A stretch of 64,000 nucleotides of DNA from an uncultured Lachnospiraceae bacterium (lineage in GTDB: Bacteria > Bacillota > Clostridia > Lachnospirales > Lachnospiraceae). The position numbers and the translations under genes are program-made. The notes below the pieces were generated by a model. The model had not been told where the DNA came from. It was given only the letters and a program-made list of their open reading frames with translations, and did no database searches. The first letter of the stretch is position 1; each line of letters opens with the position of its first letter. The stretch lies in contig CADCII010000008.1 of assembly GCA_902801515.1 (NCBI GenBank), positions 1-64,000 of the forward strand, in the 5' to 3' direction. Shown piece after piece: positions 17,891 through 53,712 of this stretch.

Positions 17891-17962
17891 GATCTATATG
17901 GTTATCTGTTCCAGTCAGACGTAAGAGTTACATTAATCATTAATCATGGGAGGAGAATGAAT

Positions 17963-21786: not shown

Positions 21787-22446
21787 TCAGAATTCGGAGT
21801 TGTCTGAAGATTGTTTTGCTTCATCCAGATAACTGTAGAGCGTGTATTTTGAGATGCCGAATATCTGGCAGACTTTGGGGCCCGACTTGGTAATCAGGAA
21901 TGCGCCGGAATCGTTCAGATAACGGATGGCACGGATCTTTTCTGATTTATCCATGAGCGAAGCCGGTTTACCGATCATGCGGATAGACTGGTCGATGAGA
22001 GAATCCAGCAGATCGGCGACATTGGTTGAGATGGGTTCTGGCTCTCTGGAATCAAGCAGTGACGCATTGTATGTATGTATTACATTCTCCATCGCAACGG
22101 TGAGCGTGATATCAGAGTTGATGCCGAGAATACCGATGGGTTTTCCTTTCTCGTCACGGAGAAATACCGTGCTTGACTTGAGGATCTTTCCGTCGCGGGT
22201 CTTAGTCAGGTAGGCAAGTTTGTCAACATGCGTTTCCTCTGCGTCACGGAAGGCTTCAAGAGCAATCTTTGAAGGACCGTCACCTATCCGGCGTCCGGAG
22301 ATATGCCCGTTTTCAATCGCTATGATCGTATGGTCAAGGTCGCCTGAAGTAAGATCATGAAGCACAATCTCACAGGTATCGCCGTAATGCACCGCAAGAG
22401 CCTTAACGATTCTTCTGGCGAAATCGAATTGTGTTGACTGTTTCAT
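21787..22446 (-). CDS. YheO/DauR-like PAS and helix-turn-helix regulator
   Basis: A 219-residue transcription factor. The N-terminal two thirds form a YheO-type PAS domain (CEIVLHDLTSGDLDHTIIAI ... GKPIGILGINSDITLTVAME). The C-terminus is the DauR-type helix-turn-helix (GPKVCQIFGISKYTLYSYLDE). Relatives control amino acid or nucleotide catabolism genes, for example DauR of Pseudomonas. It is divergent from ssnA with 102 bp between, so it is the best candidate for the regulator of the purine cluster. The ligand is unknown. Confidence 0.85.
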   Translation of the reverse strand: MKQSTQFDFARRIVKALAVHYGDTCEIVLHDLTSGDLDHTIIAIENGHISGRRIGDGPSKIALEAFRDAEETHVDKLAYLTKTRDGKILKSSTVFLRDEKGKPIGILGINSDITLTVAMENVIHTYNASLLDSREPEPISTNVADLLDSLIDQSIRMIGKPASLMDKSEKIRAIRYLNDSGAFLITKSGPKVCQIFGISKYTLYSYLDEAKQSSDNSEF

Positions 22447-22507
22447 GAATATTTTCGCCTCTTTTCTGAAAAATTATGAAAAGTAGTTTTTTCTGTCCTG
22501 CAAATTT

Positions 22508-22536
22508 ATTTTAAGGTAAACAAAAAGTTTTGACAA
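22508..22536 (-). promoter_or_regulatory. Promoter of the YheO-like regulator
   Basis: On the minus strand TTGTCA (22531-22536), a 17-bp spacer and TAAAAT (22508-22513) lie about 60 bp before the regulator start. The -35 box overlaps the ssnA ribosome binding region, so occupancy could affect both genes. Confidence 0.6.
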
Positions 22537-22548
22537 GGAGGTAGGGAG

Positions 22549-23907
22549 ATGCTTTTAGTAGGAAATGGAAGAGTTTTCACACTGGATCAGGAACACCCAT
22601 ACCTGAAAGACGGTGCTGTAGTGATAGACGGGGAAGCGATCCGGGAAGTAGGTCCTTTTGAGGAGATGAAGAAGAAATATCCGGACGCTGAATTCGTGGA
22701 CGCCCACGGCCAGCTGATCATGCCCGGATTCATCAATGCCCATACGCATATCTATTCCGGACTTGCAAGAGGACTTGCGATCGACGGCAACAATCCCACC
22801 AATTTCTTTGAAGTTCTGGACGGGATGTGGTGGAATATCGACCGTCATCTGACTCTGGACGGTACCAGAGCCTGTGCGTACGCAACCATCCTTGACTGCA
22901 TCCGGGACGGCGTGACGACAATCTTTGACCACCATGCTTCCTTCTTGGAGATTCCTGGCAGCCTGTTCGCGATCAAGGACGTTGCGAAGGAACTGGGAAT
23001 TCGTTCCTGCCTGTGCTATGAGGTTTCAGAGCGCGACGGCGAAGAGAAGTGCCTGCAGTCCATTAAGGAAAATGCAGACTTTATCACCTGGGCTCAGAAG
23101 GAAGACGATGACATGATCAAGGCTATGTTCGGCGGACATGCCCTGTTCACGATATCGGACAAAACATTTGAGAAGATGGTTGAAGCCAACGACGGAAGGA
23201 CAGGCTTCCACATCCATGTTTCTGAAGGTATGAACGATGTATGGGACAGCCTTCAGAATTACGGATGCCGTCCGGTTGAAAGACTGCTGAACAACAATAT
23301 CCTCGGACCGATGACCATGCTGGGACACTGCATCCACCTGAACGGTGACGAGATGGATATCATCAAAGAGACCGGGACTATGGCAGTGAATAATCCGGAA
23401 TCCAACATGGGCAATGCCGTAGGATGCGCGCCTGTGCTCCAGATGCTGAAGAAGGGTATTACGGTCGGAATGGGAACCGATGCGTACACCCATGACATGC
23501 TGGAATCCCTGAAGGTATTCCTGATCATCCAGAGACATAATGCAGGACTTCCGAATGTTGCTTTCGGTGAAGCGCTCCAGCTGCTCCTTGAGAACAACGC
23601 GAAGATCTGTGCGAAGTACTTTAAGAAGCCTCTGGGTGTCCTGAAGGAAGGCGCTGCCGCGGACGTCATCGTCATGGATTACAAGCCCTTCACGCCGATC
23701 GATGAAAACAATCTCGGCGGCCATATGATCTTCGGGCTTATGGGCAAGAACTGCAGGACTACAATCATCAACGGCAAAGTCCTGTACAAAGACCGAGAAT
23801 TTGTCGACATCGATGAAGAGAAGATCAATGCTTGGACGATGGAACAGGCATGCAGCCTCTGGGGAGCTCTTAACCACAGAGAGTACAGCCCCAAGTCGTA
23901 TCTGTGA
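22549..23907 (+). CDS. ssnA: SsnA-type amidohydrolase of the purine cluster
   Basis: A 452-residue metal-dependent aminohydrolase of the SsnA family (amidohydrolase superfamily, related to guanine and chlorohydrolase deaminases). Metal ligands are visible in the N-terminal MPGFINAHTHIYSGL, a His in FHIHVSEG, LGHCIHL and the late Asp in MGTDAYTHDM. ssnA lies with xdh, ygfK and yge genes in E. coli and in gut anaerobes that degrade uric acid. A hydrolytic step on a purine-ring intermediate is inferred; the exact substrate is not shown by sequence. A strong AGGAGG-like site precedes the ATG. ygfK follows after 53 bp. Confidence 0.92.
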   Translation: MLLVGNGRVFTLDQEHPYLKDGAVVIDGEAIREVGPFEEMKKKYPDAEFVDAHGQLIMPGFINAHTHIYSGLARGLAIDGNNPTNFFEVLDGMWWNIDRHLTLDGTRACAYATILDCIRDGVTTIFDHHASFLEIPGSLFAIKDVAKELGIRSCLCYEVSERDGEEKCLQSIKENADFITWAQKEDDDMIKAMFGGHALFTISDKTFEKMVEANDGRTGFHIHVSEGMNDVWDSLQNYGCRPVERLLNNNILGPMTMLGHCIHLNGDEMDIIKETGTMAVNNPESNMGNAVGCAPVLQMLKKGITVGMGTDAYTHDMLESLKVFLIIQRHNAGLPNVAFGEALQLLLENNAKICAKYFKKPLGVLKEGAAADVIVMDYKPFTPIDENNLGGHMIFGLMGKNCRTTIINGKVLYKDREFVDIDEEKINAWTMEQACSLWGALNHREYSPKSYL

Positions 23908-23960
23908 TAATAAATGAATGCGCAATACAATAACTCAGTGAACCGGAAGGAGGTTATATC

Positions 23961-26957
23961 ATGGGTGATCTTATGCGTCTGATACCTTACAGACAGCTTC
24001 TCAACTGGACTCTGACAGAGTACCGCGAGAGAGGAAGTATCTTCGGCGTATCCAAAATAGTCACAAGAGGTGACCGAAAATATCCGATTTTCAAGGGAAA
24101 GATCGAGACCGTATTCGGTCCTGCGGCAGGCCCGAACACACAGCTTGCACAGAACCTTATCGCTTCTTACTGTGCCGGCGCTTCCTGGTTTGAACTGAAG
24201 ACAGTCCAGAAGATGGACGGCCGGGAACTGGCAGCCTGTGTCCCGAAACCCTGTATCGCTTCGGGAGATGAGTGCTATAACTGCGAATGGTCCACTGAGC
24301 TGGAAGTCGGACAGGCTTATGAAGAGTATGTAAAAGCATGGTTTGTGATTCATATCCTTGCTCTGGAACTCGGCCTGGGTGATCCTGACGCGATCGTGTT
24401 CAACATGTCCGTCGGATACGATCTGGACGGTATCAAGACGCCCAAGATGCAGAAGTTCCTGGATGAAATGATCGAAGCGAAGAATACCGCTCTGTTCAAG
24501 GATTGTGTAAAGGCTTCTCTGGAAGCCATTGAAAGCGGGCTTCTGAAGAATGTGACAAAGAAAGATATTCTCGCGATCCCGTCGAAGATATCGGATTCCG
24601 TCACAGAGTCAACGCTTCACGGATGTCCCCCGAAAGAGATAGAAGCGATCGCTTCTTATCTGCTTCAGGAGAAACATCTCAATACCTATGTAAAATGCAA
24701 CCCGACCCTGCTGGGATATGAATTCGCGAGAACGACACTGGACAGCCTGGGATTTGATTACATTGCATTTGACGACCATCATTTCCTGACGGATCTTCAG
24801 TGGGAAGATGCAGTCCCCATGTTTGAGAGACTGATCAAACTGTCCGCCTCCCTTGGACTGGATGTCGGCATCAAGCTTACGAACACATTCCCGGTAGATG
24901 TAAAAGCCGGCGAGCTTCCCAGCGAAGAGATGTACATGTCTGGAAGGAGCCTGTATCCGCTGACCATTCAGCTGGTATCCAGGATCGCGAAGCAGTTCAA
25001 AGGAAAACTTCGCATTTCCTATTCCGGCGGTGCTGATTACTTCAATATCCACGATCTGGTAGCAGCGGGCGTATGGCCGGTCACTATGGCGACCACTCTG
25101 CTCAAACCGGGCGGATACCAGAGAATGCACCAGATTGCAGAACTTCTGTCCGATATCCCTGCTGCTGCATGGAAGGGCGTGAATGTGGATGCTGTATGCA
25201 GCCTGGCAGAGAAGGCGCTTGAGAACCCGAGATACCGCAAGCCGATCAAACCGCTTCCGGACAGGAAGATGGAAGAGCCGCTTCCTCTTCTTGACTGCTT
25301 CGATTCTCCGTGCAGCAGCAACTGCCCGATTCATCAGGATATCCCGGCGTACCTGCGTGCTATGGAAGAAGGAAGGTCAGAGGATGCGCTGAACATCATT
25401 CTTGAACGCAATCCGCTTCCGTTCATTACGGGCACAATCTGTCCGCATACCTGCGTAGACCGCTGCATGCGCAATCACTATGAAGAGGGCGTCCATATCC
25501 GCGAAGTTAAACTGCAGGCAGCCAAGAAGGCATTCAACAGGATCATGGAGACCACACAGAAGGTCGCTGCAAACAGCAGCAAGAAGGCTGCTGTCATCGG
25601 CGGAGGACCGGCTGGTCTTGCCACAGCCGCTTTCCTGAGCCGTGCGGGAATACCTGTAACTATATTTGAGAAGAGGGATGTTCTCGGCGGAGTCGTTCGT
25701 TCGGCAATCCCGTCATTCCGTATCGATGACAAGGCGATCGGACGCGATATTGATCTGTGTCTGAGGTATGGAGCCGAGTTCAGGACCGGATGCGAGATAA
25801 CAGATATTGCCGCTCTCAAAAAAGAAGGCTACACGGATGTGATCGTTGCCGTCGGTGCATGGAAACCGGGCAGAGAGACTCTAGAGTATGGAAAAGCTCT
25901 TGATGCTCTGGACTTCCTGGCTTCGATAAAAGCAGACGAGTCTTCGGTAAGCCTTGGTGAAAATGTTGTCGTTATCGGCGCAGGCAACACGGCCATGGAT
26001 GTTTCCCGTGCGGCAATCCGCATGAGCGGCGTAAAGAATGTCAAACTTGTATACCGCAGGACAAAACGTTATATGCCGGCGGATGAAGAAGAACTTAGAG
26101 AGGCAATCGAAGACGGAGTAGAGTTCTGCGAGCTTCTGGCTCCTGTCGGATTAAAGGACGGCATACTCGAATGCAAGGAAATGAAACTGGGAGAGCCGGA
26201 TGAGAGCGGACGCCGCAGCCCTGTCGATACAGGAAAGACTATCCAGATCCGCTGCGACAGTGTGATCACGGCAGTCGGAGAGAGAGTCGATGTATCGCTG
26301 CTTAAGGGCATCGGGGCGAAACTGGACGGCAAGGATCGTCCGGTCGTGGATGCTCACTGCCAGACAACAGTGGACGGCGTCTATGCAGTAGGTGACTGCA
26401 GAAGAGGACCTGCAACAGTTGTCAAGGGCATAGCAGACGCTATGGCTGCAGCTGAAGATATCGCCGGGATCGATCTGACAACCTACGCCAGCGAGAATGG
26501 AGCGGGAGATATCGATACCTACAGAGCAAAGAAGGGCGTTCTGACTACAGAGGTTAACGAGAAGCCGGATAACAGATGTCTCGGCTGCCCGACCGTATGC
26601 GAAGTATGTACGGATGTCTGCCCGAACAGAGCAAATGTTTCCGTGACCGTTGAGGGACTGGCGAAGCCGCAGATCCTCCATGTTGACGGTATGTGCAACG
26701 AGTGCGGAAACTGCGCAGTATTCTGTCCGCATACAGGAAGGCCGTACAGAGACAAACTGACTCTGTTCTGGTCACAGGAAGATATGGATGATTCTGAGAA
26801 CACCGGATTCCTGGTATTGGAAGGAACAAAGGTAAAACTTCGTTTCGCTGGCAAGATCCAGGAAGTTGATGTGGCTGATGAGAAGTGCGGTCTGTACGAA
26901 CCGCTGAGAAAAGTGATACTCACTGTGATACAGGAGCACTCTTATCTGATTGGATGA
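23961..26957 (+). CDS. ygfK: YgfK Fe-S/flavin oxidoreductase (putative selenate reductase subunit)
   Basis: A 998-residue multi-domain redox protein. The N-terminal half resembles dihydroorotate/dihydropyrimidine dehydrogenase barrels (VKCNPTLLGYEFARTTLDSL, GGADYFNIHDLVAAGVWPVT). Next comes a GltD-type Cys-rich linker (CFDSPCSSNCPIHQDIPAY ... CPHTCVDRCM), an FAD-binding motif (AAVIGGGPAGLATAAFLSRA) and an NAD(P) motif (VVVIGAGNTAMDVSRAA). A C-terminal ferredoxin-like module has CLGCPTVCEVCTDVCP and CNECGNCAVFCPHTG. The architecture suits electron exchange between NAD(P)H, flavin and Fe-S clusters. In the purine cluster it is a likely redox partner of XDH or a reductase of a purine intermediate. 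The ATG follows GGAGG. Confidence 0.92.
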   Translation: MGDLMRLIPYRQLLNWTLTEYRERGSIFGVSKIVTRGDRKYPIFKGKIETVFGPAAGPNTQLAQNLIASYCAGASWFELKTVQKMDGRELAACVPKPCIASGDECYNCEWSTELEVGQAYEEYVKAWFVIHILALELGLGDPDAIVFNMSVGYDLDGIKTPKMQKFLDEMIEAKNTALFKDCVKASLEAIESGLLKNVTKKDILAIPSKISDSVTESTLHGCPPKEIEAIASYLLQEKHLNTYVKCNPTLLGYEFARTTLDSLGFDYIAFDDHHFLTDLQWEDAVPMFERLIKLSASLGLDVGIKLTNTFPVDVKAGELPSEEMYMSGRSLYPLTIQLVSRIAKQFKGKLRISYSGGADYFNIHDLVAAGVWPVTMATTLLKPGGYQRMHQIAELLSDIPAAAWKGVNVDAVCSLAEKALENPRYRKPIKPLPDRKMEEPLPLLDCFDSPCSSNCPIHQDIPAYLRAMEEGRSEDALNIILERNPLPFITGTICPHTCVDRCMRNHYEEGVHIREVKLQAAKKAFNRIMETTQKVAANSSKKAAVIGGGPAGLATAAFLSRAGIPVTIFEKRDVLGGVVRSAIPSFRIDDKAIGRDIDLCLRYGAEFRTGCEITDIAALKKEGYTDVIVAVGAWKPGRETLEYGKALDALDFLASIKADESSVSLGENVVVIGAGNTAMDVSRAAIRMSGVKNVKLVYRRTKRYMPADEEELREAIEDGVEFCELLAPVGLKDGILECKEMKLGEPDESGRRSPVDTGKTIQIRCDSVITAVGERVDVSLLKGIGAKLDGKDRPVVDAHCQTTVDGVYAVGDCRRGPATVVKGIADAMAAAEDIAGIDLTTYASENGAGDIDTYRAKKGVLTTEVNEKPDNRCLGCPTVCEVCTDVCPNRANVSVTVEGLAKPQILHVDGMCNECGNCAVFCPHTGRPYRDKLTLFWSQEDMDDSENTGFLVLEGTKVKLRFAGKIQEVDVADEKCGLYEPLRKVILTVIQEHSYLIG

Positions 26958-27040
26958 ATCTGGTAAGAAGTATCTTATCAGTTGAAACCGACCGGATGTA
27001 TCGTATAACCGTACAATTGACTTGATATTTAAGCTGACAG

Positions 27041-27078
27041 CAATTCCACGAAGGATCACTTGATTCTTCGTGGAATTG
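27041..27078. repeat. 13-bp perfect inverted repeat upstream of xdh
   Basis: CAATTCCACGAAG (27041-27053) and CTTCGTGGAATTG (27066-27078) are perfect complements with a 12-nt loop, 28 bp before the xdh start. No T-run follows. It may be an operator, an mRNA processing hairpin or an attenuator. Confidence 0.8.
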
Positions 27079-27105
27079 TGGTGCGCACATGGATGGACTA
27101 TCGAT

Positions 27106-30100
27106 ATGGGAGAATTATATACATTTACAGTAAACGGACAGTCTGTAAGTACACAGGAAGACAAGCCGCTCCTCAGATATCTGAGGGACGACCTGAAACT
27201 TTACTCTGTCAAAGACGGCTGCTCGGAAGGTGCCTGCGGCGCCTGTACGATAATTGTGGATGGAAAGCCAGTCCGTTCATGTATACAGAAGACCAGCAAA
27301 GCCGTGGGCAAAACTATCCTCACTGTTGAGGGATTGTCTATTGAAGAGAAAGAAGCCTTTGTCTATGCATTCGGTGCCTGCGGAGCGGTACAGTGCGGTT
27401 TCTGCATCCCTGGTATGGTGATGAGCGGAAAGGCTCTTCTGGACGTTAATCCGGATCCCACGGATGAAGAGATCAAGGCAGCAATCAAAGGAAATGTATG
27501 CCGCTGTACCGGATATGTGAAGATCATTGAAGCAATCCGTCTTGTCGGAGCGATCCTGAGAGGAGAGAAAGAGATCGACCCGTCCCTCGAAGAGGGAAAT
27601 GAATACGGTGTCGGTAAAAGAGCTTTCCGTGTTGATGTACGCAGAAAGGCTCTTGGATACGGGAAGTATCCGGACGATATCGGGCCTGAGTACTTTGTTA
27701 AAGAAAACAGTCCTGAGGCTCTCGAGATAGAGAGACAACTGGCGGAATCTGCAAGTGACGGAATCACTGCTGGATTCGCAGCACAGTTTGACAGTGCTCA
27801 TCATCTGAAGGCAGGCTCCAGCCTCAGCAGGATCGATGATCCCGGATGCAACTGGTGCGCTATCGTGCCTGAAGATATGCCGCCCATGGCCTATTGCTCT
27901 GCTGTGCGTTCTGAATACGCGAGAGCAAAAGTTCTGAAGATCGACGCTGAAGCGGCAAGGATGCTGCCCGGCGTGCTTGGAGTGCTTACTGCAGCTGATG
28001 TGCCGGTCAACAAGGTCGGACATATCATCTATGACTGGGATGTGATGATTGCCGAGGGTGATATCACAAGAATGTGCGGGGACGCGATCTGCCTGGTAGT
28101 CGCAGAATCTCCTTACATCATGGAGCAGGCTAAAAAACTAGTGAAGATCGAATATGAACCGCTTGAGCCGGTACATGATCCGCAGGAAGCAGCCAGGCCT
28201 GACGCTCCGAAGATCCATCCCGAACTGGATATCGAAGGGAATCTGTGCGCATCCAGACACATCGTAAGAGGAAATCCGAAAGAAGCGATCGCATCCTCTG
28301 CGTTTGTGGTTACCGAGAGCTTTGAGACTCCATTTACAGAGCATGCCTTCCTGGAGCCGGAATGCGCAGTCTCATTTCCATACAAGGATGGTATCAAGAT
28401 ACTATCTACCGATCAGGGTGCCTATGCGACCAGAAATGAAGTTGCCCACATGTTCGGATGGGAGCAGGAGAGGGTCGTTGTTGAAAACCAGCTGATCGGC
28501 GGTGGTTTCGGAGGAAAAGAAGACGTTACGACCCAGCATATAAGCGCTCTTGCCGCATGGATATTCAAGCGTCCGGTCAAGGCAAAGTTCACCCGCCAGG
28601 AGTCGATTAATTTCCATCCGAAGCGCCATCCCATGAAAGGTACCTTCACGGTAGGATGCGATGAAAACGGAATAATCCAGGGACTGGACTGCGAATTCAC
28701 TTTTGATACAGGCGCCTATGCGTCCCTGTGCGGCCCTGTCCTGGAGAGAGCGTGTACACATGCAGTGGGTCCATACTGCTACCAGAATACAGATATCCGC
28801 GGATACGGATACTATACGAATAACCCGCCTTCAGGAGCGTTTCGAGGTTTTGGCGTATGCCAGACAGAATTTGCACTTGAGTCCGTCCTGAACAAACTGG
28901 CTGACATGGCCGGGATCACGCCGTGGGAGATCCGTTACAGAAATGCGATAGAGCCCGGCAAGGTTCTGCCGAACGGACAGATTGCCGATGTATCGACTGC
29001 CCTTAAGGAAGCGCTTGAGGCTGTAAAACCATATTATGACGCACATCCCGGAAGAGCGGGAATTGCATGCGCCATGAAGAATGCCGGCGTCGGCGTCGGG
29101 CTTCCCGATGACGGCAACGCCCTTCTTCGTGTTGAGAACGGATCGCTTGTAATCTATACCTGTGCGTCCGATATAGGACAGGGAGGTTATACCGTCTTTT
29201 CCCAGGATGCGGCCGAAGCGACAGGACTTCCGAAGTCCCGCATACGGATGGGGATCAGCAGTACGGAAAATGCTCCTGATTCAGGTACCACTTCAGGATC
29301 CAGACAGACACTGGTGACAGGGGAAGCAGTCAGAGGAGCTGCCTTCCTGCTCAGAGACGCCATGGCGGCGGCGGAGATAGTTTCGCGCAGACTGACTGAA
29401 GAGGGGAGCAGTGTCAGCGAGACAGATCCGGCAAAGATCCGCAGCCTCATACTGGATACTTTGAAGACATCTCCTGCATATCAGACTCCGAGATCAGCGG
29501 ATAATGAGACCGCACAGTACGGAACAGGACTTGAGTTCGCGCCGCGCACGGACGAGGGACCTTTTGTCAGCCCGAATATGACAGTGTCGGATGACGGCAG
29601 GATCAGCGGACGCGGAAGCGGACTGAATCAGGGAACCTACGGAAGAAAAGGAACACAGACGAAGATCTGCGGATCTCCGGTTGACGATCCGTTCTCTGCG
29701 CTTGACATGCTTGAAGGTATGAGCTTCAGTTACCGGTATTTTGAACCGACCGATAAACTTGGCGCTGATGTCCCCAACCCGAAGAGTCATATCGCATACG
29801 GTTACGCAGCCTGCTGTGCAATCCTGGATGATGAGGGAAAAGTGACGCACATCTACTCCGCCTATGACGCAGGCAAGGTCGTCAACCCGATCTCAATTCA
29901 GGGACAGATCGAGGGCGGAGTCCTTATGGGCATGGGCTATGCATGCACGGAGGATTTTCCGCTGAAAGACTGCAGACCGGCGGCCAAATACGGCAGACTC
30001 GGCCTTCTGCGGGCACCGCAGATACCTGAGATCAATGCAATCTATGTTGAGAAGGATGAACTGATGGGCGTCTCTTACGGGAGTAAGGGAATCGGTGAGA

Positions 30101-30204
30101 TCACAACCATACCGGCCGCGCCTGCAATTGCCGGGGCATACTATGCGCTCGACGGTCAGATACGTAATAAACTGCCGATGGAACACACTTTCTACAGACC
30201 TTGA
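27106..30204 (+). CDS. xdh: Fused Fe-S/molybdopterin xanthine dehydrogenase (Se-dependent XDH type)
   Basis: A 1032-residue molybdenum hydroxylase expected to oxidise xanthine or urate-pathway purines. The N-terminal [2Fe-2S] module has CSEGACGACTIIVDG and the second cluster CGAVQCGFCIPGM ... NVCRCTGY. The molybdopterin part has GGGFGGKEDVTTQ, GAFRGFGVCQTEFALES, SDIGQGGYTVFSQDAAEATG and the active-site Glu in SYGSKGIGEITTIPA. There is no FAD domain, so electrons must pass to another protein, possibly YgfK. The fusion matches the selenium-dependent XDH family; selenium is inferred from the family, not visible. ATG 27106 is preferred; the GTG at 27070 lies inside the hairpin arm and would add 12 non-conserved residues. 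The RBS is weak (GGATGGA). Confidence 0.92.
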   Translation: MGELYTFTVNGQSVSTQEDKPLLRYLRDDLKLYSVKDGCSEGACGACTIIVDGKPVRSCIQKTSKAVGKTILTVEGLSIEEKEAFVYAFGACGAVQCGFCIPGMVMSGKALLDVNPDPTDEEIKAAIKGNVCRCTGYVKIIEAIRLVGAILRGEKEIDPSLEEGNEYGVGKRAFRVDVRRKALGYGKYPDDIGPEYFVKENSPEALEIERQLAESASDGITAGFAAQFDSAHHLKAGSSLSRIDDPGCNWCAIVPEDMPPMAYCSAVRSEYARAKVLKIDAEAARMLPGVLGVLTAADVPVNKVGHIIYDWDVMIAEGDITRMCGDAICLVVAESPYIMEQAKKLVKIEYEPLEPVHDPQEAARPDAPKIHPELDIEGNLCASRHIVRGNPKEAIASSAFVVTESFETPFTEHAFLEPECAVSFPYKDGIKILSTDQGAYATRNEVAHMFGWEQERVVVENQLIGGGFGGKEDVTTQHISALAAWIFKRPVKAKFTRQESINFHPKRHPMKGTFTVGCDENGIIQGLDCEFTFDTGAYASLCGPVLERACTHAVGPYCYQNTDIRGYGYYTNNPPSGAFRGFGVCQTEFALESVLNKLADMAGITPWEIRYRNAIEPGKVLPNGQIADVSTALKEALEAVKPYYDAHPGRAGIACAMKNAGVGVGLPDDGNALLRVENGSLVIYTCASDIGQGGYTVFSQDAAEATGLPKSRIRMGISSTENAPDSGTTSGSRQTLVTGEAVRGAAFLLRDAMAAAEIVSRRLTEEGSSVSETDPAKIRSLILDTLKTSPAYQTPRSADNETAQYGTGLEFAPRTDEGPFVSPNMTVSDDGRISGRGSGLNQGTYGRKGTQTKICGSPVDDPFSALDMLEGMSFSYRYFEPTDKLGADVPNPKSHIAYGYAACCAILDDEGKVTHIYSAYDAGKVVNPISIQGQIEGGVLMGMGYACTEDFPLKDCRPAAKYGRLGLLRAPQIPEINAIYVEKDELMGVSYGSKGIGEITTIPAAPAIAGAYYALDGQIRNKLPMEHTFYRP

Positions 30205-30209
30205 TTCTA

Positions 30210-30237
30210 TTGACATATTTGAACAAACTGGTATGAT
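30210..30237 (+). promoter_or_regulatory. Internal promoter in front of ygeX
   Basis: A perfect TTGACA (30210-30215), a 16-bp spacer and TATGAT (30232-30237) lie 64 bp before the ygeX start. It suggests that ygeX and the genes after it can be transcribed separately from ssnA-ygfK-xdh. Confidence 0.65.
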
Positions 30238-30300
30238 GAAATCAGACAAAAAGTTTGGTTGCTTAAAATCATTTTGAAGCAATATTTCAGGAGAATTATT

Positions 30301-31530
30301 ATGAGTGAACTGGAATTAAGCTGGGTCATGAATAAGATGCCCAAGTCGGATGACAAGTGTCTCGAGATCATGTCTCTTGAGAATGTTGAAAAAGCTCGCA
30401 GATTTCATAAGAGTTTTCCCCAGTACGGCATTACTGCCATGGCTGACCTGAAAAAACTGGCGCAGTACCTCGGACTTGGCGGCATCTATGTCAAGGATGA
30501 ACGCTCGAGATTCGGGCTGAACGCATTTAAGGTCCTGGGAGCTTCATTTGCGATGGGACGCTACATCGCTCATGAACTGGGTGAACATGTCAGCGATATC
30601 ACTTATGACGATCTTACAAGCCCGGAACTGAAGGAAACATTCGGTACCGCGACTTTCTTTACCGCAACCGACGGCAACCACGGAAGAGGTGTCGCCTGGG
30701 CCGCGAGAAGACTGCACCAGAAGGCGGTTGTCCATATGCCGAAAGGCTCGGCAAAATCAAGATACGACAATATAGCAAAAGAAAAAGCGACGGTTACGAT
30801 CGAGGACCTGAATTACGATGACTGTGTACGTCTGGCTGCAAAAGAGGCAGCTGAGACTAAGCACGGTGTAGTGATTCAGGACACAGCCTGGGAAGGTTAT
30901 GAAGATATTCCTTCCTGGATCATGCAGGGATATGGGACAATCTCCCATGAGGCTGCGGAGCAGCTCAGAGAACTCGAGGTGAACCGTCCTTCTCATATCT
31001 TCATACAGGCAGGAGTCGGTTCATTTGCATCCTCAGTAGTGGGATATTTCACCAACCTGTTCCCGGAACATCCGCCGAAGTTCATCATCGTTGAACCCAG
31101 GACTGCAGCGTGTCTCTATAAAGGAGCGGAACTTGGAACGGGTGAGCCGCAGATCGTTAAGGGTGACCTGAAGACGATCATGGCAGGTCTTGCCTGCGGC
31201 GAACCGAATGTCCTTGGCTGGGATATCCTCCGGAATCATGCGGACGCATTCATCGCGATCGACGATTGGGTAGCGGCCAAGGGTATGAGAATGCTGGCGG
31301 TTCCGATGATCGGAGACCCGCATGTTATCTCTGGTGAATCCGGTGCGGCAACAATGGGCACTCTCGGGCAGATCATGATGAACGATGACCTTTGGGAGAT
31401 CAGGGAACTGCTCGGGCTGAATAAAGATTCCCATGTGCTTCTGTTCTCGACAGAAGGCAATACCGATCCTGATTATTTCAGAAGAGTCGTCTGGGACGGC
31501 GCATACGGTATCGGGAAAGAGAATCCGTAA
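30301..31530 (+). CDS. ygeX: Diaminopropionate ammonia-lyase, first copy
   Basis: A PLP fold-type II enzyme converting 2,3-diaminopropionate to pyruvate and two ammonia. It has 409 residues. The PLP lysine lies in RFGLNAFKVLGASFA, the catalytic Asp in FTATDGNHGRGVAW, and a second Asp in LNYDDCVRLA. The phosphate and substrate regions continue with TAWEGYEDIPSWIMQGY, ACGEPNVLGWDIL and GESGAATMGTLGQI. ATG 30301 follows AGGAG with good spacing; the frame extends upstream without a plausible start. In purine degradation this is the step giving pyruvate for energy. A second, clearly diverged copy is at 39621. Confidence 0.95.
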   Translation: MSELELSWVMNKMPKSDDKCLEIMSLENVEKARRFHKSFPQYGITAMADLKKLAQYLGLGGIYVKDERSRFGLNAFKVLGASFAMGRYIAHELGEHVSDITYDDLTSPELKETFGTATFFTATDGNHGRGVAWAARRLHQKAVVHMPKGSAKSRYDNIAKEKATVTIEDLNYDDCVRLAAKEAAETKHGVVIQDTAWEGYEDIPSWIMQGYGTISHEAAEQLRELEVNRPSHIFIQAGVGSFASSVVGYFTNLFPEHPPKFIIVEPRTAACLYKGAELGTGEPQIVKGDLKTIMAGLACGEPNVLGWDILRNHADAFIAIDDWVAAKGMRMLAVPMIGDPHVISGESGAATMGTLGQIMMNDDLWEIRELLGLNKDSHVLLFSTEGNTDPDYFRRVVWDGAYGIGKENP

Positions 31531-31559
31531 GATCCTGATCGCAGATAAGCGGCAACGAA

Positions 31560-31578
31560 CCGGCTGTGAATAAGCCGG
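31560..31578 (+). repeat. Short hairpin between ygeX and ygeY
   Basis: CCGGCT (31560-31565) and AGCCGG (31573-31578) form a 6-bp stem with a 7-nt loop, 59 bp before ygeY, with no T-run. Confidence 0.5.
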
Positions 31579-31636
31579 ATATGAATATTGCAGTACAGAT
31601 GTCTCGTTTTCATTTTATCAAGTAAGGAGGAAAAGG

Positions 31637-33031
31637 ATGGAACTTGATTATGGGAGGATCAAAGAGGCTGCTGAGGGTTACAAGAAAGAGATGACGGCAT
31701 TTCTGCGCGCCATGATCTCTCATCCCAGCGAGAGCTGTGAAGAGAAGGACGTAGTAATGTGCATCAAAGAGGAGATGGAAAAAGTCGGTTTCGACAAGGT
31801 TGAGATCGACGGCCTCGGAAATGTGATCGGCTGGGCCGGAAAGAACGGCGATATCGGAGATGACAAGAAGATCATCGCAATCGACGGCCATATCGATACT
31901 GTCGGTATCGGAAACCGCGAAAACTGGACTGCAGATCCTTACGAAGGATGGGAAGATGATGACGTGATCTACGGAAGAGGCGGATCCGACCAGGAAGGCG
32001 GCACCGCATCCGCTGTATACGCAGTGAAAATCATGAAAGAAATGGATCTGATCCCTGAGGGATACAAGATCATGGTCGTCGGCTCTGTCATGGAAGAAGA
32101 CTGCGACGGACTGTGCTGGCAGTACATCGTCAACAAAGACAAGATCCGTCCGGAATTTGTCATTTCCACCGAGCCTACTGACGGCGGAATCTACAGAGGT
32201 CACAGAGGACGTATGGAGATCCGTGTCGACGTTCACGGCGTATCCTGCCACGGCAGTGCTCCGGAGCGCGGAGACAACGCGATCTACAAGATGGCGGACA
32301 TCATTCAGGATATTCGTGCACTCAATAATAATGACTGCACAGAATCCACAGCGATCAAGGGTCTGGCCAAGATGCTCACTCCGAAGTACAATCCGGATCA
32401 CTATGAAGACGCCAGATTCCTCGGAAGGGGTACCTGCACAGTATCACAAATCTTCTACACCTCACCGAGCCGCTGCGCAGTTGCTGACTCCTGCGCGATC
32501 TCCATCGACCGCCGCATGACTGCAGGCGAGACCTGGGACAGCTGCCTGAAGGAGATCGAAGATCTTCCGTCTGTCAAGAAGTACGGCGATGATGTCAAAG
32601 TCTCCATGTACATGTACGACCGTCCGGCTTGGACCGGAGAAGTCTATGAGACAGAGGCATACTTCCCGACCTGGATCAACAAAGAGAGCGCAGCTCACGT
32701 GAAATGCCTCGTCGATGCGCATAAGGCACTGTACGGCGACAAGAGAATGGGACCGGACAGCCAGAAGGAACTTCGCGACCGTCCGCTGACCGACAAGTGG
32801 ACCTTCTCCACGAACGGCGTTGCGATCCAGGGCCGCTACGGCATCCCGTGCGTAGGATTCGGTCCCGGAGCTGAGAGCCAGGCACACGCACCCAACGAGA
32901 TCACCTGGAAACAGGATCTTGTGAGAGTCTGCGCAGTCCTCACCGCAGCAATCCCGATCTACACCACACTCGAGAAGACAGACGACGTCACAGTCTTCAG
33001 AGCCGGAAAGACAGATAACGACATTCTGTAA
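31637..33031 (+). CDS. ygeY: YgeY family M20 metallohydrolase
   Basis: A 464-residue dinuclear zinc peptidase/amidohydrolase of the M20 clan, in the subgroup annotated as selenium-metabolism linked. Metal and catalytic residues appear in [24 protein letters not shown], the catalytic Glu pair in VMEEDCDGL and the later STEPT segment. C-terminal His ligands lie near ESQAHAPNE. It should hydrolyse an amide or ureido intermediate of purine breakdown, by analogy with its neighbours; the exact substrate is inferred. AAGGAGG precedes the ATG. It lies between ygeX and ygeW as in E. coli-type clusters. Confidence 0.93.
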
Positions 33032-33035
33032 TTAA

Positions 33036-33063
33036 TTGTGTTGACGACGTTGTGTTGACGACG
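33036..33063. repeat. Tandem 14-bp duplication
   Basis: TTGTGTTGACGACG occurs twice back to back (33036-33049 and 33050-33063), directly after the ygeY stop and before the structured element at 33068. Confidence 0.85.
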
Positions 33064-33067
33064 GGAA

Positions 33068-33185
33068 GCACGGGTTTCCTTAGTCGGGCGTGTAGGAACG
33101 CCGGCACTTGGAACGCGTATTCTGCGTTCCTATGTGCCCGCTGCGTTCCGGTTCGAGCGAAAGCGACCCGACGTGGAAACCGTGC
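33068..33185. repeat. Nested palindromic element between ygeY and ygeW
   Basis: An outer stem pairs GCACGGGTTTCC with GGAAACCGTGC. A second level pairs GTCGGG with CCCGAC. Inner arms AGGAACGC / GCGTTCCT and a small GAGCGAAAGC hairpin complete a multi-branched fold of about 115 nt. The element is more GC-rich than the surroundings and ends about 60 bp before ygeW. Its sequence matches no riboswitch class I recognise; it may be a repeat element or an mRNA leader. Confidence 0.65.
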
Positions 33186-33247
33186 GAACGGAGGAAATAT
33201 ATAAGAGAAGTAGTATACAGGATTCATTTTCAGAAAGGAACGTGATC

Positions 33248-34444
33248 ATGGACAAAGGTTTACAGGCTTTTATCGACAAACTGAATACACTGAAGTTCGA
33301 CAATATGTATGAGAACGATTTTTATTTCACATGGGATAAGACCGACGATGAGATCATGGCGCTGTTCACTGTCGCTGATGCACTGAGACATCTGAGAGAG
33401 CAGAACATTTCCACCAAGATCTTTGATTCCGGACTTGGAATCTCCATCTTCCGTGACAATTCCACCAGAACCAGATTCTCCTTTGCTTCAGCCTGCAACC
33501 TGCTTGGTCTGGAAGTACAGGATCTGGACGAGAAGAAGAGCCAGATCGCTCACGGTGAAACTGTCAGAGAGACGGCGAACATGGTTTCCTTCATGGCTGA
33601 CGTCATCGGTATCCGTGATGATATGTATATCGGCAAAGGACATACCTATCAGAAGACCTTCATGGATGCTGTCACACAGGGCCATAAAGACGGTATACTC
33701 GAGCAGAAGCCGACTCTTGTCAACCTGCAGTGCGACGTTGACCATCCGACACAGTGCCTTGCAGACATGGAAGAGATCATCCATTACTTCGGCGGTGTTG
33801 AGAACCTGAAGGGCAAGAAGTTGGCCATGACATGGGCTTATTCTCCCAGTTACGGCAAACCGCTTTCCGTACCGCAGGGCGTTATCGGTCTGATGACCAG
33901 ATTCGGTATGGATGTAGTCCTTGCTCATCCGGAAGGATACGATGTATTCCCGGAATGCGAAGAAATCGCAAGAAAGAATGCGGAGAAGACCGGCGGAAGC
34001 TTCACAAAGACCAACAGCATGGCTGAGGCATTCAAGGATGCGGATATCGTATATCCGAAGAGCTGGGCTCCGTTCGCTGCGATGGAAAAGAGAACCGACC
34101 TGTACGGAAAGGGTGACTTCGACGGCATCGATAAGCTTGAGAAGGAACTGCTTGCGCAGAATGCAGAGCATAAGGACTGGACCTGCAGCGAAGAACTCAT
34201 GAAGACTACAAAAGATGGCAAGGCTCTGTATCTGCACTGCCTGCCGGCTGACATCACAGGAGTTTCCTGTGAGGCAGGTGAGGTCGATGCATCTGTATTT
34301 GACCGCTACATCGATCCTCTGTACAAAGAAGCTTCCTACAAGCCGTACATTATCGCAGCTATGATCTTCCTTGCAAAATGCAAGAATCCGCAGGAGACTC
34401 TGAAGAAACTTGCCGAGGCAAATAAGCCGAGACTGTTCCAGTAA
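33248..34444 (+). CDS. ygeW: YgeW knotted carbamoyltransferase
   Basis: A 398-residue member of the aspartate/ornithine carbamoyltransferase superfamily, YgeW group. The carbamoyl-phosphate loop is IFRDNSTRTRFSFASA, followed by the HPTQCLADMEEII motif and the C-terminal YLHCLPADITG with its catalytic Cys-Leu-Pro. The group differs from OTCase and ATCase in its second-substrate loop. In purine degradation it is thought to run in the catabolic direction, releasing carbamoyl phosphate for carbamate kinase, encoded next. ATG 33248 follows GAAAGGAACGTGATC; the upstream open frame crosses the palindromic element and is not coding. Confidence 0.94.
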   Translation: MDKGLQAFIDKLNTLKFDNMYENDFYFTWDKTDDEIMALFTVADALRHLREQNISTKIFDSGLGISIFRDNSTRTRFSFASACNLLGLEVQDLDEKKSQIAHGETVRETANMVSFMADVIGIRDDMYIGKGHTYQKTFMDAVTQGHKDGILEQKPTLVNLQCDVDHPTQCLADMEEIIHYFGGVENLKGKKLAMTWAYSPSYGKPLSVPQGVIGLMTRFGMDVVLAHPEGYDVFPECEEIARKNAEKTGGSFTKTNSMAEAFKDADIVYPKSWAPFAAMEKRTDLYGKGDFDGIDKLEKELLAQNAEHKDWTCSEELMKTTKDGKALYLHCLPADITGVSCEAGEVDASVFDRYIDPLYKEASYKPYIIAAMIFLAKCKNPQETLKKLAEANKPRLFQ

Positions 34445-34469
34445 TCCGATCAGACAATTATGCTGTTTT

Positions 34470-34494
34470 CAGTGGCGGATACCGTCCGCCACTG
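34470..34494 (+). repeat. Hairpin between ygeW and arcC
   Basis: CAGTGGCGGA (34470-34479) / TCCGCCACTG (34485-34494) is a perfect 10-bp stem with a 5-nt loop, followed by ATATTA rather than a T-run. It lies 21 bp before arcC and may protect or attenuate the message. Confidence 0.7.
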
Positions 34495-34515
34495 ATATTA
34501 ATGGGAGGATAAGAA

Positions 34516-35457
34516 ATGGCACACAGAGTAGTTATTGCGCTGGGCGGAAATGCGCTCGGCAACAATCTTCCCGAGCAGATGATCGCCACACGCCAGACAG
34601 CGAAGGCAATCGTGGATCTGATCGAGGAGGGCTGTGAAGTCGTCATTGCGCACGGGAATGGGCCGCAGGTAGGGATGATACAGAACGCGATGAGCGAACT
34701 GGTGAGATCCGATCCGGAGAAGTACATTACCGTGCCGCTATCTGTATGCGTCGCCATGAGTCAGGGCTACATCGGATATGACCTTCAGAACGCGATGAGA
34801 GAGGAAATGCTTGACCGGGGAATTGATGTCGGTGTCGCGACAGTGCTTACCCAGGTAGAAGTAGATCCGAACGATCCCGCATTTACAAACCCGACCAAAC
34901 CGATCGGCGCTTTCATGACGAAGGAAGAGGCTGAGAAGCTGGTAAGTGAACGTAACTACAACGTTATGGAAGATGCCGGCAGAGGATACCGAAGAGTCGT
35001 TGCTTCCCCGCAGCCGGTATCGATTGTAGAGATCGGTACGATCAAGTCATTGGTTGAGACAAATCATGTTGTCATTGCCTGCGGAGGCGGCGGGATCCCC
35101 GTGTTCAAGACAGAAGGCCATCATCTGAAAGGAGCTGCAGCTGTCATAGACAAAGATTTTGCTGCAGAGGTCCTTGCGGAGCAGGTGGACGCGGATACAC
35201 TCATTATCCTCACAGCCGTTGAAAAGGTCGCGATTCATTTCGGCAAGCCGGATCAGGAAGAACTGTCAGATATCACCACGGAACAGGCGAAGAAATATAT
35301 CGCTCACGGTGAATTTGCCCCCGGATCCATGCTCCCGAAAGTTCAGGCATCGGTCCGGTTCGCGGAATCAAAGCCCGGAAGAAAAGCACTTATTACACTG
35401 CTTGAAAAAGCCAGAGACGGAATCTCCGGTAAGACAGGCACTATGATACACGTATAA
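34516..35457 (+). CDS. arcC: Carbamate kinase
   Basis: Transfers phosphate from carbamoyl phosphate to ADP, giving ATP, ammonia and CO2. It is a 313-residue amino acid kinase-fold protein with VVIALGGNALG at the N-terminus, VIAHGNGPQVGMI, PTKPIGAFMTKEEA and the ADP-binding GGGGIPV region. It occupies the place of yqeA in the E. coli cluster, directly after the carbamoyltransferase, which supports substrate-level ATP formation from purine nitrogen/carbon rather than arginine deiminase metabolism; no arcA or arcB is present. Confidence 0.96.
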   Translation: MAHRVVIALGGNALGNNLPEQMIATRQTAKAIVDLIEEGCEVVIAHGNGPQVGMIQNAMSELVRSDPEKYITVPLSVCVAMSQGYIGYDLQNAMREEMLDRGIDVGVATVLTQVEVDPNDPAFTNPTKPIGAFMTKEEAEKLVSERNYNVMEDAGRGYRRVVASPQPVSIVEIGTIKSLVETNHVVIACGGGGIPVFKTEGHHLKGAAAVIDKDFAAEVLAEQVDADTLIILTAVEKVAIHFGKPDQEELSDITTEQAKKYIAHGEFAPGSMLPKVQASVRFAESKPGRKALITLLEKARDGISGKTGTMIHV

Positions 35458-35470
35458 ATCATGACATATC

Positions 35471-35491
35471 CCGCTTACAGATGAAAAGCGG
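35471..35491 (+). repeat. Short hairpin between arcC and the PLP gene
   Basis: CCGCTT (35471-35476) / AAGCGG (35486-35491) form a 6-bp stem, 29 bp before the next start, without a T-run. Confidence 0.45.
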
Positions 35492-35520
35492 AAAATGGAA
35501 TCAGGAAAGGAGAAACCGTC

Positions 35521-37002
35521 GTGGTAAAGATTGATCTGAGTATCAACAAGGAAAACCTGCAGCACAATATCAAGAAGGCAAAGGAGAACAAGATCCTCAT
35601 TCCGACGATCGATCAGATGATCCATCCGGAGCATACCCCTGAGAAGGTAACGGAGAGTCTGAAAAATGTCGGTCTGTGGGATGTCAATCCTCTGAATCTG
35701 TTCCGCATTACCTGGAAGAATGAAGCAAAGGAAGCCGGCGGACAGTATGTCAGTGTTCCGAACTATGTTGAGATCCCGAGTTCTGTTTCCGGCGTACCGT
35801 GCCGTATCATTGCCATGGTTGGTAAATGGTTCCCGACAGGATGCCATAAAGTCGGCGCATCGTTTGGATGCCTGGCTCCGAGGCTTGTGACCGGACAGTT
35901 TGACGTAGACTCACAGAAGGCTGTCTGGCCGTCAACCGGCAACTACTGCAGAGGCGGCGCATTTAACTCAGCACTTCTTGGAGCCAGAGGCGTAGCGATC
36001 CTTCCGGCAGAGATGAGCCAGGAGCGTTTTGACTGGCTGCATGAGATCGGAGCAGAAGTCATTGCAACTCCCGGCTGCGAGAGCAACGTCAAGGAGATCT
36101 TTGACAAGACAAATGAACTGAAACTTGATCCTCAGTACATGATCTTCAACCAGTTTGCAGAGATGGGCAATCCGCTGTGGCATTACAACGTCACAGGCAA
36201 CGCTCTTGCTGATGTGTTTGAAGCAGTGAAGAAAGACGGAGACCGTTTCGCAGGTGCTTGCTTCACCTCCGGTTCCGCAGGAACCATGTCCGCCGGCGAC
36301 CGTCTGAAAGAACTGTATCCGCATCTGAAACTTGCCGTAGGCGAGGCGCTTCAGTGCCCGACCCTGCTGAACAATGGTTTTGGCGGACACAGAATTGAAG
36401 GTATCGGCGACAAGCATGTCCCGTGGATCCACAATGTAAAGAACACGGATATGGTGATCGACATCGACGATGAAGATTCCCAGAGACTGCTCCGCCTGTT
36501 CAATACACCGGAAGGACAGGCTTATCTGAAGGATGAGCTGAAGCTTGATCCTGAACTGATCGAGAAGCTCACCTGGCTCGGCATCAGCGGCATCGCGAAT
36601 GTCCTGTGCTGCATCAAGATGGCGAAGTATTATGAGTTCACAGAACATGATGTGATCGGCACCGTTCTTACTGACTCTGCAGTAATGTACAAGAGCCGTG
36701 TAGAAGAACTCAATGAGATGTACGGCCCCTACAGTGTGAAGGATGCGGAACTGGATCACAATCTGCATATGCTGAACCTCAAGACGGATGTCATGGAGGA
36801 ACTTACCTATGCAACCCGCAAGCGCATCCACAACCTGAAGTACTACACCTGGGTAGAGCAGCAGGGCATGGAGATCGAAGACCTGAACGCTCTGTGGTAT
36901 GACGTGGAAGGTACCTGGGATGCTGTCCATCATCAGGCAGCCGAGCTCGACGAGCTCATCAAGGCCTTCAATGAGGAAACCGGCGTCCTGGATATGCTTT
37001 GA
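35521..37002 (+). CDS. Unassigned fold-type II PLP enzyme of the purine cluster
   Basis: A 493-residue protein of the cysteine synthase / tryptophan synthase beta superfamily. The likely PLP lysine is in WFPTGCHKVGASFG (about residue 115), the cofactor-stacking Asn loop in WPSTGNYCRGGAFNSA, and the Gly-rich phosphate loop in CFTSGSAGTMSAGDRLKE. The long C-terminal part (about 150 residues) is unlike classical CysK. It starts with GTG at 35521 after AAAGGAG. It is tightly placed behind ygeW-arcC and has no E. coli yge counterpart. A lyase, racemase or beta-replacement step on a diaminopropionate- or serine-like intermediate is possible, but the reaction is unknown. Confidence 0.8.
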   Translation: MVKIDLSINKENLQHNIKKAKENKILIPTIDQMIHPEHTPEKVTESLKNVGLWDVNPLNLFRITWKNEAKEAGGQYVSVPNYVEIPSSVSGVPCRIIAMVGKWFPTGCHKVGASFGCLAPRLVTGQFDVDSQKAVWPSTGNYCRGGAFNSALLGARGVAILPAEMSQERFDWLHEIGAEVIATPGCESNVKEIFDKTNELKLDPQYMIFNQFAEMGNPLWHYNVTGNALADVFEAVKKDGDRFAGACFTSGSAGTMSAGDRLKELYPHLKLAVGEALQCPTLLNNGFGGHRIEGIGDKHVPWIHNVKNTDMVIDIDDEDSQRLLRLFNTPEGQAYLKDELKLDPELIEKLTWLGISGIANVLCCIKMAKYYEFTEHDVIGTVLTDSAVMYKSRVEELNEMYGPYSVKDAELDHNLHMLNLKTDVMEELTYATRKRIHNLKYYTWVEQQGMEIEDLNALWYDVEGTWDAVHHQAAELDELIKAFNEETGVLDML

Positions 37003-37085: not shown

Positions 37086-37159
37086 AGTATCTGCCGGCTG
37101 AACGGTTCATACCCGGAAGGCTGTAAAGATCATATGTCATGAACAGAGGAGGTACAGTA

Positions 37160-38264: not shown

Positions 38265-38299
38265 AAGCTCCGCACCCTTGCGGTGCGGGGCTTTATGTT
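38265..38299 (+). terminator. Hairpin between serC and DUF1015 gene
   Basis: AAGCTCCGCACC (38265-38276) / GGTGCGGGGCTT (38282-38293) form a 12-bp stem with a 5-nt loop and one G-U pair, followed by TATGTTTATTTAC. It may be a weak intercistronic terminator that lowers expression of the two genes behind it. Confidence 0.6.
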
Positions 38300-38319
38300 T
38301 ATTTACGAAGGAGCTTGAT

Positions 38320-44766: not shown

Positions 44767-45005
44767 GTCTTAACAAGATAACATTACCTGGGGTGCTCGA
44801 CAGTTCTGTTTATTTTTGAACCTACATCGACTTGAACGGGTTTCCTATATCTCTGTGAACAATGTCAGGCCGTCCTCGAACGGAAGACAGCGGCGCAGTT
44901 GCGGTTACCCACCTGGCTTTTAGCTAGGAGTCAAAAGGCGGAGCACCGGCACTCTGGGCTGTGTATAGCAATTCCAGAAAGAGGACATCCGGATATGTCC
45001 TCTTT
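44767..45005 (+). ncRNA. ssrS: Structured noncoding RNA, probably 6S RNA (SsrS)
   Basis: This gap of 333 bp between pheT and queA has its own promoter and a terminator and no coding frame. A closing stem pairs GGTGCTC (44792-44798) with GAGCACC (44941-44947). A terminal hairpin pairs TGTC-CCGT with ACGG-GACA around CCTCGA, and a small hairpin CCTGGC/GCTAGG lies on the 3' strand of the central bubble. This closing stem, bubble and terminal stem plan is that of 6S RNA, which binds sigma-A RNA polymerase. SRP RNA was considered because of GTCAGG...GGAAG, but the GNRA tetraloop and AGCAGC context are missing. A covariance search is needed to settle the class. Confidence 0.6.
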
Positions 45006-53689: not shown

Positions 53690-53712
53690 TTTCAAGATAT
53701 TGTATGATGTAA

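Follow-up and report, generated by a model that had tools for sequence, protein, structure and literature searches.

The genes for reductive breakdown of uric acid in Escherichia coli K-12 are arranged as ygeWXY-hyuA-yqeA and ygfK-ssnA-ygfM-xdhD, with urate being reduced to 2,8-dioxopurine and then passing through YgfK/SsnA, HyuA and YgeW with YgeY before YgeX yields pyruvate (PMC12507026; PMC12990295). The XdhAC protein of Clostridium sporogenes is reported to reduce urate, its physiological electron donor being listed as open (PMC12990295). In Clostridium and Clostridioides the sigma54 regulon of DioR takes in ygeW-ygfK-ssnA-ygeY, dpaL, tdcF and yqeB with its function listed as Unknown (PMC6615313). 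How gut bacteria at large control their uric-acid genes 'remains poorly understood' in the words of the Discussion (PMC12507026). Here we describe a related locus in 64,000 nucleotides of DNA from an uncultured Lachnospiraceae bacterium (assembly GCA_902801515.1, contig CADCII010000008.1, positions 1 to 64,000), the whole of which is called the window. Between 21787 and 35457 ssnA, ygfK, a fused xdhAC, ygeX, ygeY, ygeW and a carbamate kinase gene form a single run with a divergent regulator gene, REG. The run is very probably a catabolic operon of the reductive uric-acid pathway under a pathway-specific regulator, with PLPx, the following gene for a pyridoxal phosphate (PLP) enzyme, as a proposed extra member of the regulon. 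The pathway is known and the gene set is of the published kind; what the locus may add is an ssnA-tied group of regulators with a predicted DNA site, and the PLPx module.

Gene content and predicted pathway

The genes of the run and REG are all intact open reading frames (ORFs), and computation places the seven enzymes above the curated cut-offs of their NCBIfam profiles, with the domains of the regulator assigned by Pfam (Table 1). The first-pass annotation had read these families as lying in one run behind a divergent regulator and as serving oxygen-independent purine breakdown, the first of which holds and the second of which is supported, the profile scores matching the reductive uric-acid pathway. 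Its interval needed amending in that the genes it named lie at about the positions it gave, while PLPx, which owns the end at 37002, and a second ygeX (ygeX2) had been missed. If activities follow those of homologs, XdhAC would reduce urate to 2,8-dioxopurine, YgfK and SsnA would reduce and then open the pyrimidine ring, HyuA, supplied from another contig, would open the hydantoin, YgeW with carbamate kinase, plus YgeY, would remove the two ureido groups with ATP (adenosine triphosphate) gained from carbamoyl phosphate, and YgeX would convert 2,3-diaminopropionate to pyruvate and ammonia. The catalytic residues of E. coli YgeX, K77, D120 and D189, are kept in both YgeX copies. The YgeX start is more likely the ATG at 30301 than the TTG at 30259, and YgeW matches its profiles only from residue 42-44 onward.

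The identity of the first enzyme bears most directly on whether urate is the substrate. XdhAC scores 194 bits against the XdhD-type model TIGR03313 (cut-off 1102) and so falls outside the XdhD type, and the fusion suggests that the TIGR03311 type is that of C. sporogenes XdhAC. The cluster might instead serve to oxidize other purines or N-heterocycles (xanthine, hypoxanthine, nicotinate-like compounds) in a selenium-dependent manner, given that the hydroxylase model is named for selenium-dependent xanthine dehydrogenase, that no flavin adenine dinucleotide (FAD) partner adjoins XdhAC and that a separate XdhABC is encoded on contig C23. Glu606 of XdhD has been suggested to orient urate, and Asn occupies this column in 96 of 97 XdhAC-type sequences, the remaining one having a gap; the difference from XdhD would speak against urate reduction, but the stretch is poorly aligned and therefore permits no conclusion on urate specificity. 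Set against this alternative, the full downstream set of YgfK, SsnA, YgeW, YgeY, YgeX and HyuA fits the reductive urate route, and urate reduction is reported for the XdhAC of C. sporogenes (PMC12990295). Oxidation of other substrates is thus very unlikely, with urate reduction being the preferred reading.

The first-pass annotation had seen no HyuA, FAD subunit or permease in the run, as is the case, and had proposed that the steps lacking lie outside the window, which a genome search bore out with finds of hyuA, selD, yqeB and yqeC together with FAD-subunit and permease candidates. The hyuA gene lies on contig C23 (TIGR02033, 554 bits against a cut-off of 393; 41% identity to E. coli HyuA); PF01968, tried as a HyuA model, belongs to the wrong family and gave 0 matches. 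Its neighbours, named by sequence reading, are yqeB, xdhA, xdhB (FAD), xdhC, an adenine deaminase gene and a yqeC-mocA fusion, with 46% (YqeB), 43% (XdhA), 43% (XdhB) and 31% (YqeC) identity to the E. coli proteins and a weak match for the MocA half (E 0.01). The XdhB homolog thus sits in the C23 xdhABC set, away from XdhAC, for which it is a candidate partner. Two selD genes (contigs C34 and C54) exceed the cut-off, and PF00860 permease candidates, with urate as putative substrate, comprise a full copy on C1 and a C35 copy split over two overlapping frames (L117:8526-9907), perhaps a pseudogene or an assembly error. Near the second purine locus, that of hyuA on C23, a gene at C23:8698-10038 encodes a putative CobW/HypB-like GTPase, the product having a long His/Asp-rich stretch. 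On paper the reductive uric-acid pathway would be complete across at least two loci of the genome.

The PAS_6 regulator and its predicted operator

REG has no NCBIfam match at E 0.001 and is the sole PAS_6 match in the genome. Across a family sample of 397 genomes ssnA was found in 68 and PAS_6 in 94, with PAS_6 present in 60 of the 68 genomes that have ssnA as against 34 of the 329 that lack it (Fisher p 1.5e-37, this and later p-values overstating the evidence since related genomes are not independent). A PAS_6 gene lies within 12 kb of ssnA in 47 of the 68 and divergently within 1 kb in 36, and among 80 named ssnA loci 58 have a REG-like match, with at least 42% identity in 37. Within the family sample ssnA is thus usually accompanied by a regulator of the REG type, which also turns up in Oscillospiraceae and Atopobiaceae. 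No ygeV-type activator was found in loci L049-L121, among them those of the window's genus mates (L106 and L112), the window's own flanks lying outside this search.

A regulator tree of 122 rows separates from YheO, by one branch with support 98/97, a group of 91 rows made up of ssnA-linked regulators of Lachnospiraceae, Oscillospiraceae, Anaerovoracaceae and Atopobiaceae together with ten encoded away from ssnA in genomes that have it, the tree having an arbitrary root, rough and unsettled bootstrap values and long branches for YheO and some others. On YheO's side fall the PAS_6 proteins of three genomes lacking ssnA, the second PAS_6 genes of G138 and G262, a PAS_6 gene near ssnA in G127 and proteins of Collinsella and other Coriobacteriaceae, while the G133 regulator branches just outside the 91-row group. 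The diverged PAS_6 protein near ssnA in Collinsella (L183, L185-L199) could reflect separate recruitment or fast divergence. The description of REG as DauR-like in the first-pass annotation stands at the family level, through PAS_6 and HTH_22, which E. coli YheO/DauR also has; it does not stand in the tree, where REG lies apart from YheO, to which it is 28.6% identical. A direct tie of REG to D-arginine control was dropped because of this separation. The same annotation's view of REG as a dedicated regulator is upheld by its place in the ssnA-tied group, though such a regulator is not peculiar to this genome, and we infer that REG is pathway-specific.

An expectation-maximization search over 36 REG-ssnA gaps, that of the window included, returned a 35-bp palindromic AT-rich motif with the consensus TTCTAAAAAATTTTTAGGTAACCTAAAAATTTTTT and a log-likelihood ratio of 564 against 121-143 in six dinucleotide shuffles. 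The matrix was scanned at 20 bits over 67 other ssnA loci (1,205,126 bases), 35 from the training set and 32 held out. All 45 sites of at least 20 bits lay close to the start of a pathway gene, at most 600 bp before it or 150 bp into the gene, counting the regulator, PLPx and permeases as such, and block-shuffled data gave 0 sites at this score. Training loci supplied 32 of the 45 sites, with a site present in 32 of the 35 training and 12 of the 32 held-out loci. The 13 held-out sites are all at pathway promoters, preceding REG, ygeX, ssnA, xdhAC, a permease or PLPx. Pathway genes are dense, with 24-31% of bases near their starts, so that nearness of the sites is partly expected; in the held-out set 24% of bases, and 45% of the AT-rich 35-mers, fall near such starts, and at 45% the chance of 13 in 13 is about 3e-5.

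The motif could be taken for a promoter element, or for a structural feature of the DNA in AT-rich intergenic regions, rather than a REG binding site, since it is AT-rich and in the window overlaps a sigma70-like promoter. Such an element would be expected near starts for only 45% of AT-rich stretches, as against the 13 of 13 held-out sites, and in most of the 36 gaps the motif lies outside the promoter hexamers. Single scans of eight regulators whose genes are remote from ssnA gave 35.7, 30.2, 23.5, 20.8, 19.9, 8.9, 8.4 and 8.3 bits, so that the motif is strong at five, whereas it is absent at the PAS_6 genes of three genomes without ssnA (1.5, -3.5 and -5.9 bits); the second PAS_6 gene of G138 scored -2.7 bits. 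The lack of a strong copy at the other three remote regulators and at the REG-PLPx loci of G136, G241 and G186 fits the structural explanation, which is nonetheless quite improbable. A REG operator is preferred, and REG would bind the palindrome of about 35 bp between its own gene and ssnA.

The site centre lies 26 bp from the -35 hexamer on the REG side in 28 of the 36 gaps and 25-26 bp from it on the ssnA side in 23, which places it near -61 to -62 relative to the start point of both divergent promoters in most relatives measured, the distances being taken from whichever hexamer pair scored highest within a short stretch so that some rows will be wrong. In most relatives this would be the position of a class I activator, suggesting activation. 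The window's site, O1, lies only 15 bp before the ssnA ATG so that the geometry of relatives does not apply, and within the window's genus the site and the apparent promoter of REG (22536-22508, TTGTCA-17-TAAAAT in the window) overlap, for which reason the effect there may be repression. A genome-wide search with an 18-base core at no more than two mismatches gave one match, O1, and the reversed control gave two, so the core pattern says nothing on significance.

Several results weigh against regulation of this kind, or against the pathway assignment itself. Eight of the 68 genomes with ssnA have no PAS_6 match and 34 of the 329 without it have one. The window's SsnA shares only 31% identity with its E. 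coli counterpart. The motif falls below 20 bits in 20 of the 32 held-out loci, reaches only 8-9 bits at three of the eight remote regulators and 10.6, 6.4 and -6.1 bits at the REG-holding PLPx loci G186, G241 and G136, and is weak or absent by matrix at Coriobacteriia loci (best 17.1 bits). In the window O1 is a degenerate site that belongs to the training set and ends close to the ssnA ATG, and the second site, O2, which comes after TTGACA..TATGAT (read by eye), is weak at 6.9 bits. On C23 the best matrix score was 3.6 bits, at the contig end, with none at the hyuA locus, so that hyuA does not visibly belong to the regulon in this genome. Nothing convincing was found by the matrix at the two permease loci, and the best matches ahead of ygeY in L144, L148 and L149 were weak (4.6, 9.7 and 1.2 bits).

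No description of the REG group, its site or the PLP step was found in the literature searched, though an earlier one may exist. In PMC12507026 'regulat' occurs twice by word search, and PLP, threonine synthase, cysteine synthase, SerC and RidA do not occur.

PLPx, its ThrCl partner and a possible role at the diaminopropionate step

PLPx is a cysteine-synthase-like protein that scores 87.7 bits against the curated CysK model (cut-off 351) and thus falls outside it, the similarity being confined to a core stretch. In the family sample PLPx (E 1e-100) was found in 18 of the 397 genomes, all 18 having ssnA (p 2e-15), and a threonine-synthase-like partner, ThrCl (E 1e-120), in 15, all among those 18. 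The three PLPx genomes without ThrCl are those of the window's genus and each has two ygeX copies; G033, G253 and G262 have two copies yet no PLPx. Seven of the 68 genomes with ssnA lack ygeX (E 1e-60), and PLPx and ThrCl are both present in six of the seven (Fisher p 0.001), the seventh, G375, having neither; ygeX is also present in 12 of the 18 PLPx genomes. In L179 the PLPx-ThrCl pair lies between ygfK and ygeY, the slot that ygeX fills in L152, while the near relatives L148 and L149 keep PLPx with no ygeX between ygfK and ygeY, a ygeX2 beyond the covered stretch being possible. PLPx shares a predicted operator with REG in G026 and G237, and with ygeX in G291 and G310. PLPx would thus belong to the regulon and act at the diaminopropionate step or close to it, together with ThrCl elsewhere and with YgeX2 in the window's genus.

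The genes around PLPx also allow another reading, in which PLPx and ThrCl form a separate amino-acid module (serine, cysteine, threonine) that lies near the cluster by chance or by hitch-hiking. The nearest solved sequences of the two proteins are cysteine synthase and threonine synthase, and serC and a serA-like gene adjoin, following PLPx-ThrCl in G136, G167 and G186 (there after an opposed ORF), with serC following in G237. AlphaFold models of PLPx and ThrCl, at pLDDT (predicted local distance difference test) 38.6 and 42.5, were unusable. In a phylum sample PLPx (E 1e-60) occurs in 76 of 329 genomes, with many homologs in other settings. For 32 of those 76 genomes, taken from the better scores, the loci were inspected for purine-type genes (ssnA, ygfK, hyuA, xdh, guaD or a close ygeY) within about 8 kb: such genes lie at only three of the 19 loci without ThrCl, but at 13 of the 13 that are paired with it. 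In addition, the confinement of PLPx to ssnA genomes in the family sample, its presence in six of the seven ssnA genomes that lack ygeX, and the shared operators speak against this reading; a separate amino-acid module is possible but doubtful, and membership of the uric-acid regulon is preferred.

The idea that PLPx is exclusive to ssnA genomes was narrowed, as it holds in the family sample only. The PLPx-ThrCl pair is seen only in family genomes with ssnA or beside purine-type genes, ssnA not always being in view; in G295 and G226 the pair has no adjoining uric-acid enzymes. At five phylum loci (L262, L266, L268, L270 and L271) PLPx-ThrCl is followed by a protein of 182-185 amino acids and then by a permease, hyuA/ygeY/ygeW or xdh genes, the small protein presumably being an XRE-cupin regulator and so another local regulator class.

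A more specific scheme, speculative and rather unlikely as it stands, is that PLPx with ThrCl (or YgeX2) forms a second, PAS_6-controlled terminal module that would convert diaminopropionate or aminoacrylate by beta-replacement to O-phosphoserine or serine, with SerC, SerA and DUF1015 channelling the carbon to 3-phosphoglycerate or serine and not to pyruvate. The putative DUF1015 protein is the product of 38278-39624.

Neighbouring genes, relatives and comparison with known systems

Coordinates of the features are collected in Table 1.

Table 1. Genes and predicted sites of the uric-acid locus and its surroundings, in window positions.
Feature	Position	Strand	Basis or remark
Regulator REG	21787..22446	-	Pfam: PAS_6 E 7e-35, HTH_22 E 2e-19
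ssnA, aminohydrolase	22549..23907	+	642 bits vs cut-off 444; 31% identity to E. coli SsnA
ygfK, Fe-S flavoprotein reductase	23961..26957	+	1290 bits vs 835; 42.5% to E. coli YgfK
xdhAC, 2Fe-2S + molybdopterin fusion, predicted urate reductase	27070..30204	+	TIGR03311 1122 bits vs 830
ygeX, diaminopropionate ammonia-lyase	30259..31530	+	584 bits vs 532
ygeY, M20-family ureido hydrolase	31637..33031	+	612 bits vs 321; 57% to E. coli YgeY
ygeW, knotted carbamoyltransferase	33134..34444	+	785 bits vs 500; 62% to E. coli YgeW
arcC/yqeA, carbamate kinase	34516..35457	+	375.5 bits vs 358; 60% to E. coli YqeA
PLPx, fold-type II PLP enzyme, cysteine-synthase-like	35521..37002	+	proposed extra member of uric-acid regulon
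serC, phosphoserine aminotransferase	37139..38251	+	507 bits vs 444; comes after PLPx or PLPx-ThrCl in several relatives too
Gene beside serC	38278..39624	+	no NCBIfam match; neighbour of serC in relatives too
ygeX2, second diaminopropionate ammonia-lyase	39621..40823	+	TIGR03528 561.6 bits vs 532
serA-like, phosphoglycerate dehydrogenase	17957..19120	+	upstream of cluster; best match TIGR01327 233 bits, below cut-off 454
Predicted operator O1	22499..22533	.	19.9 bits, top score in the 64 kb window; training-set member
Weak predicted operator O2, ahead of ygeX	30241..30275	.	6.9 bits, second best site of the window

Among named relatives the closest are metagenome-assembled genomes of Lachnospiraceae, many with rumen (RUG) names. 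Synteny extends to the serA-like gene upstream of the cluster in the cultured Porcincola intestinalis (L166), which has the order serA-glgB-REG-ssnA-ygfK-xdhAC-ygeX-ygeY-ygeW with one short unassigned ORF between glgB and REG. The commonest order in the family is arcC-ygeW-ygeY-ygeX-REG divergent from ssnA-ygfK, followed by hyuA and/or xdhAC, while in the window's genus all pathway genes of the cluster lie on one side of REG. In Mogibacterium and relatives (L156-L158, L162, L167, L168) both XdhD-YgfM and XdhAC types occur around ssnA-ygfK, together with an xdhABC set. In L056, L058, L063, L065 and L072 a protein of 127-131 amino acids is encoded between arcC and ygeW, inside the uric-acid operon; we take it to be RidA, which would fit disposal of the 2-aminoacrylate expected from YgeX. 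Elsewhere in the window a 6S RNA (44782-44964) and a Clostridiales-1 RNA (53705-53875) both exceed their Rfam gathering scores.

The group of regulators and a concrete DNA site would make the regulation of uric-acid genes testable in gut Lachnospiraceae, and the PLPx-ThrCl pair is a candidate for finishing the pathway in genomes that have ssnA and lack ygeX, which surveys with ygeX as marker would miss. Both are relevant to predicting uric-acid clearance by particular gut bacteria.

The locus shares with the E. coli K-12 pathway homologs of SsnA, YgfK, YgeW, YgeX, YgeY, carbamate kinase and HyuA. Unlike in E. coli K-12, the genes form the single run ssnA-ygfK-xdhAC-ygeX-ygeY-ygeW-arcC with hyuA and the FAD subunit on another contig, XdhAC stands in place of XdhD-YgfM, PLPx and a second ygeX are present, and the regulator is a PAS_6/HTH_22 protein whereas E. 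coli has the putative sigma54-type YgeV; gene maps agree here with the first-pass annotation, which had noted that order and regulator differ from the E. coli yge region. With C. sporogenes the locus has in common a urate reductase named XdhAC, predicted as such in the window (Liu et al., 2025, as given in PMC12990295). As in the DioR regulon, pathway genes are grouped under one regulator, but DioR is a sigma54 enhancer-binding protein (PMC6615313) and the locus described here has a PAS_6/HTH_22 protein with sigma70-like promoters. E. coli YheO/DauR and REG have the PAS_6 family in common, E. coli being positive in the control search, but YheO/DauR does not adjoin uric-acid genes and REG does.

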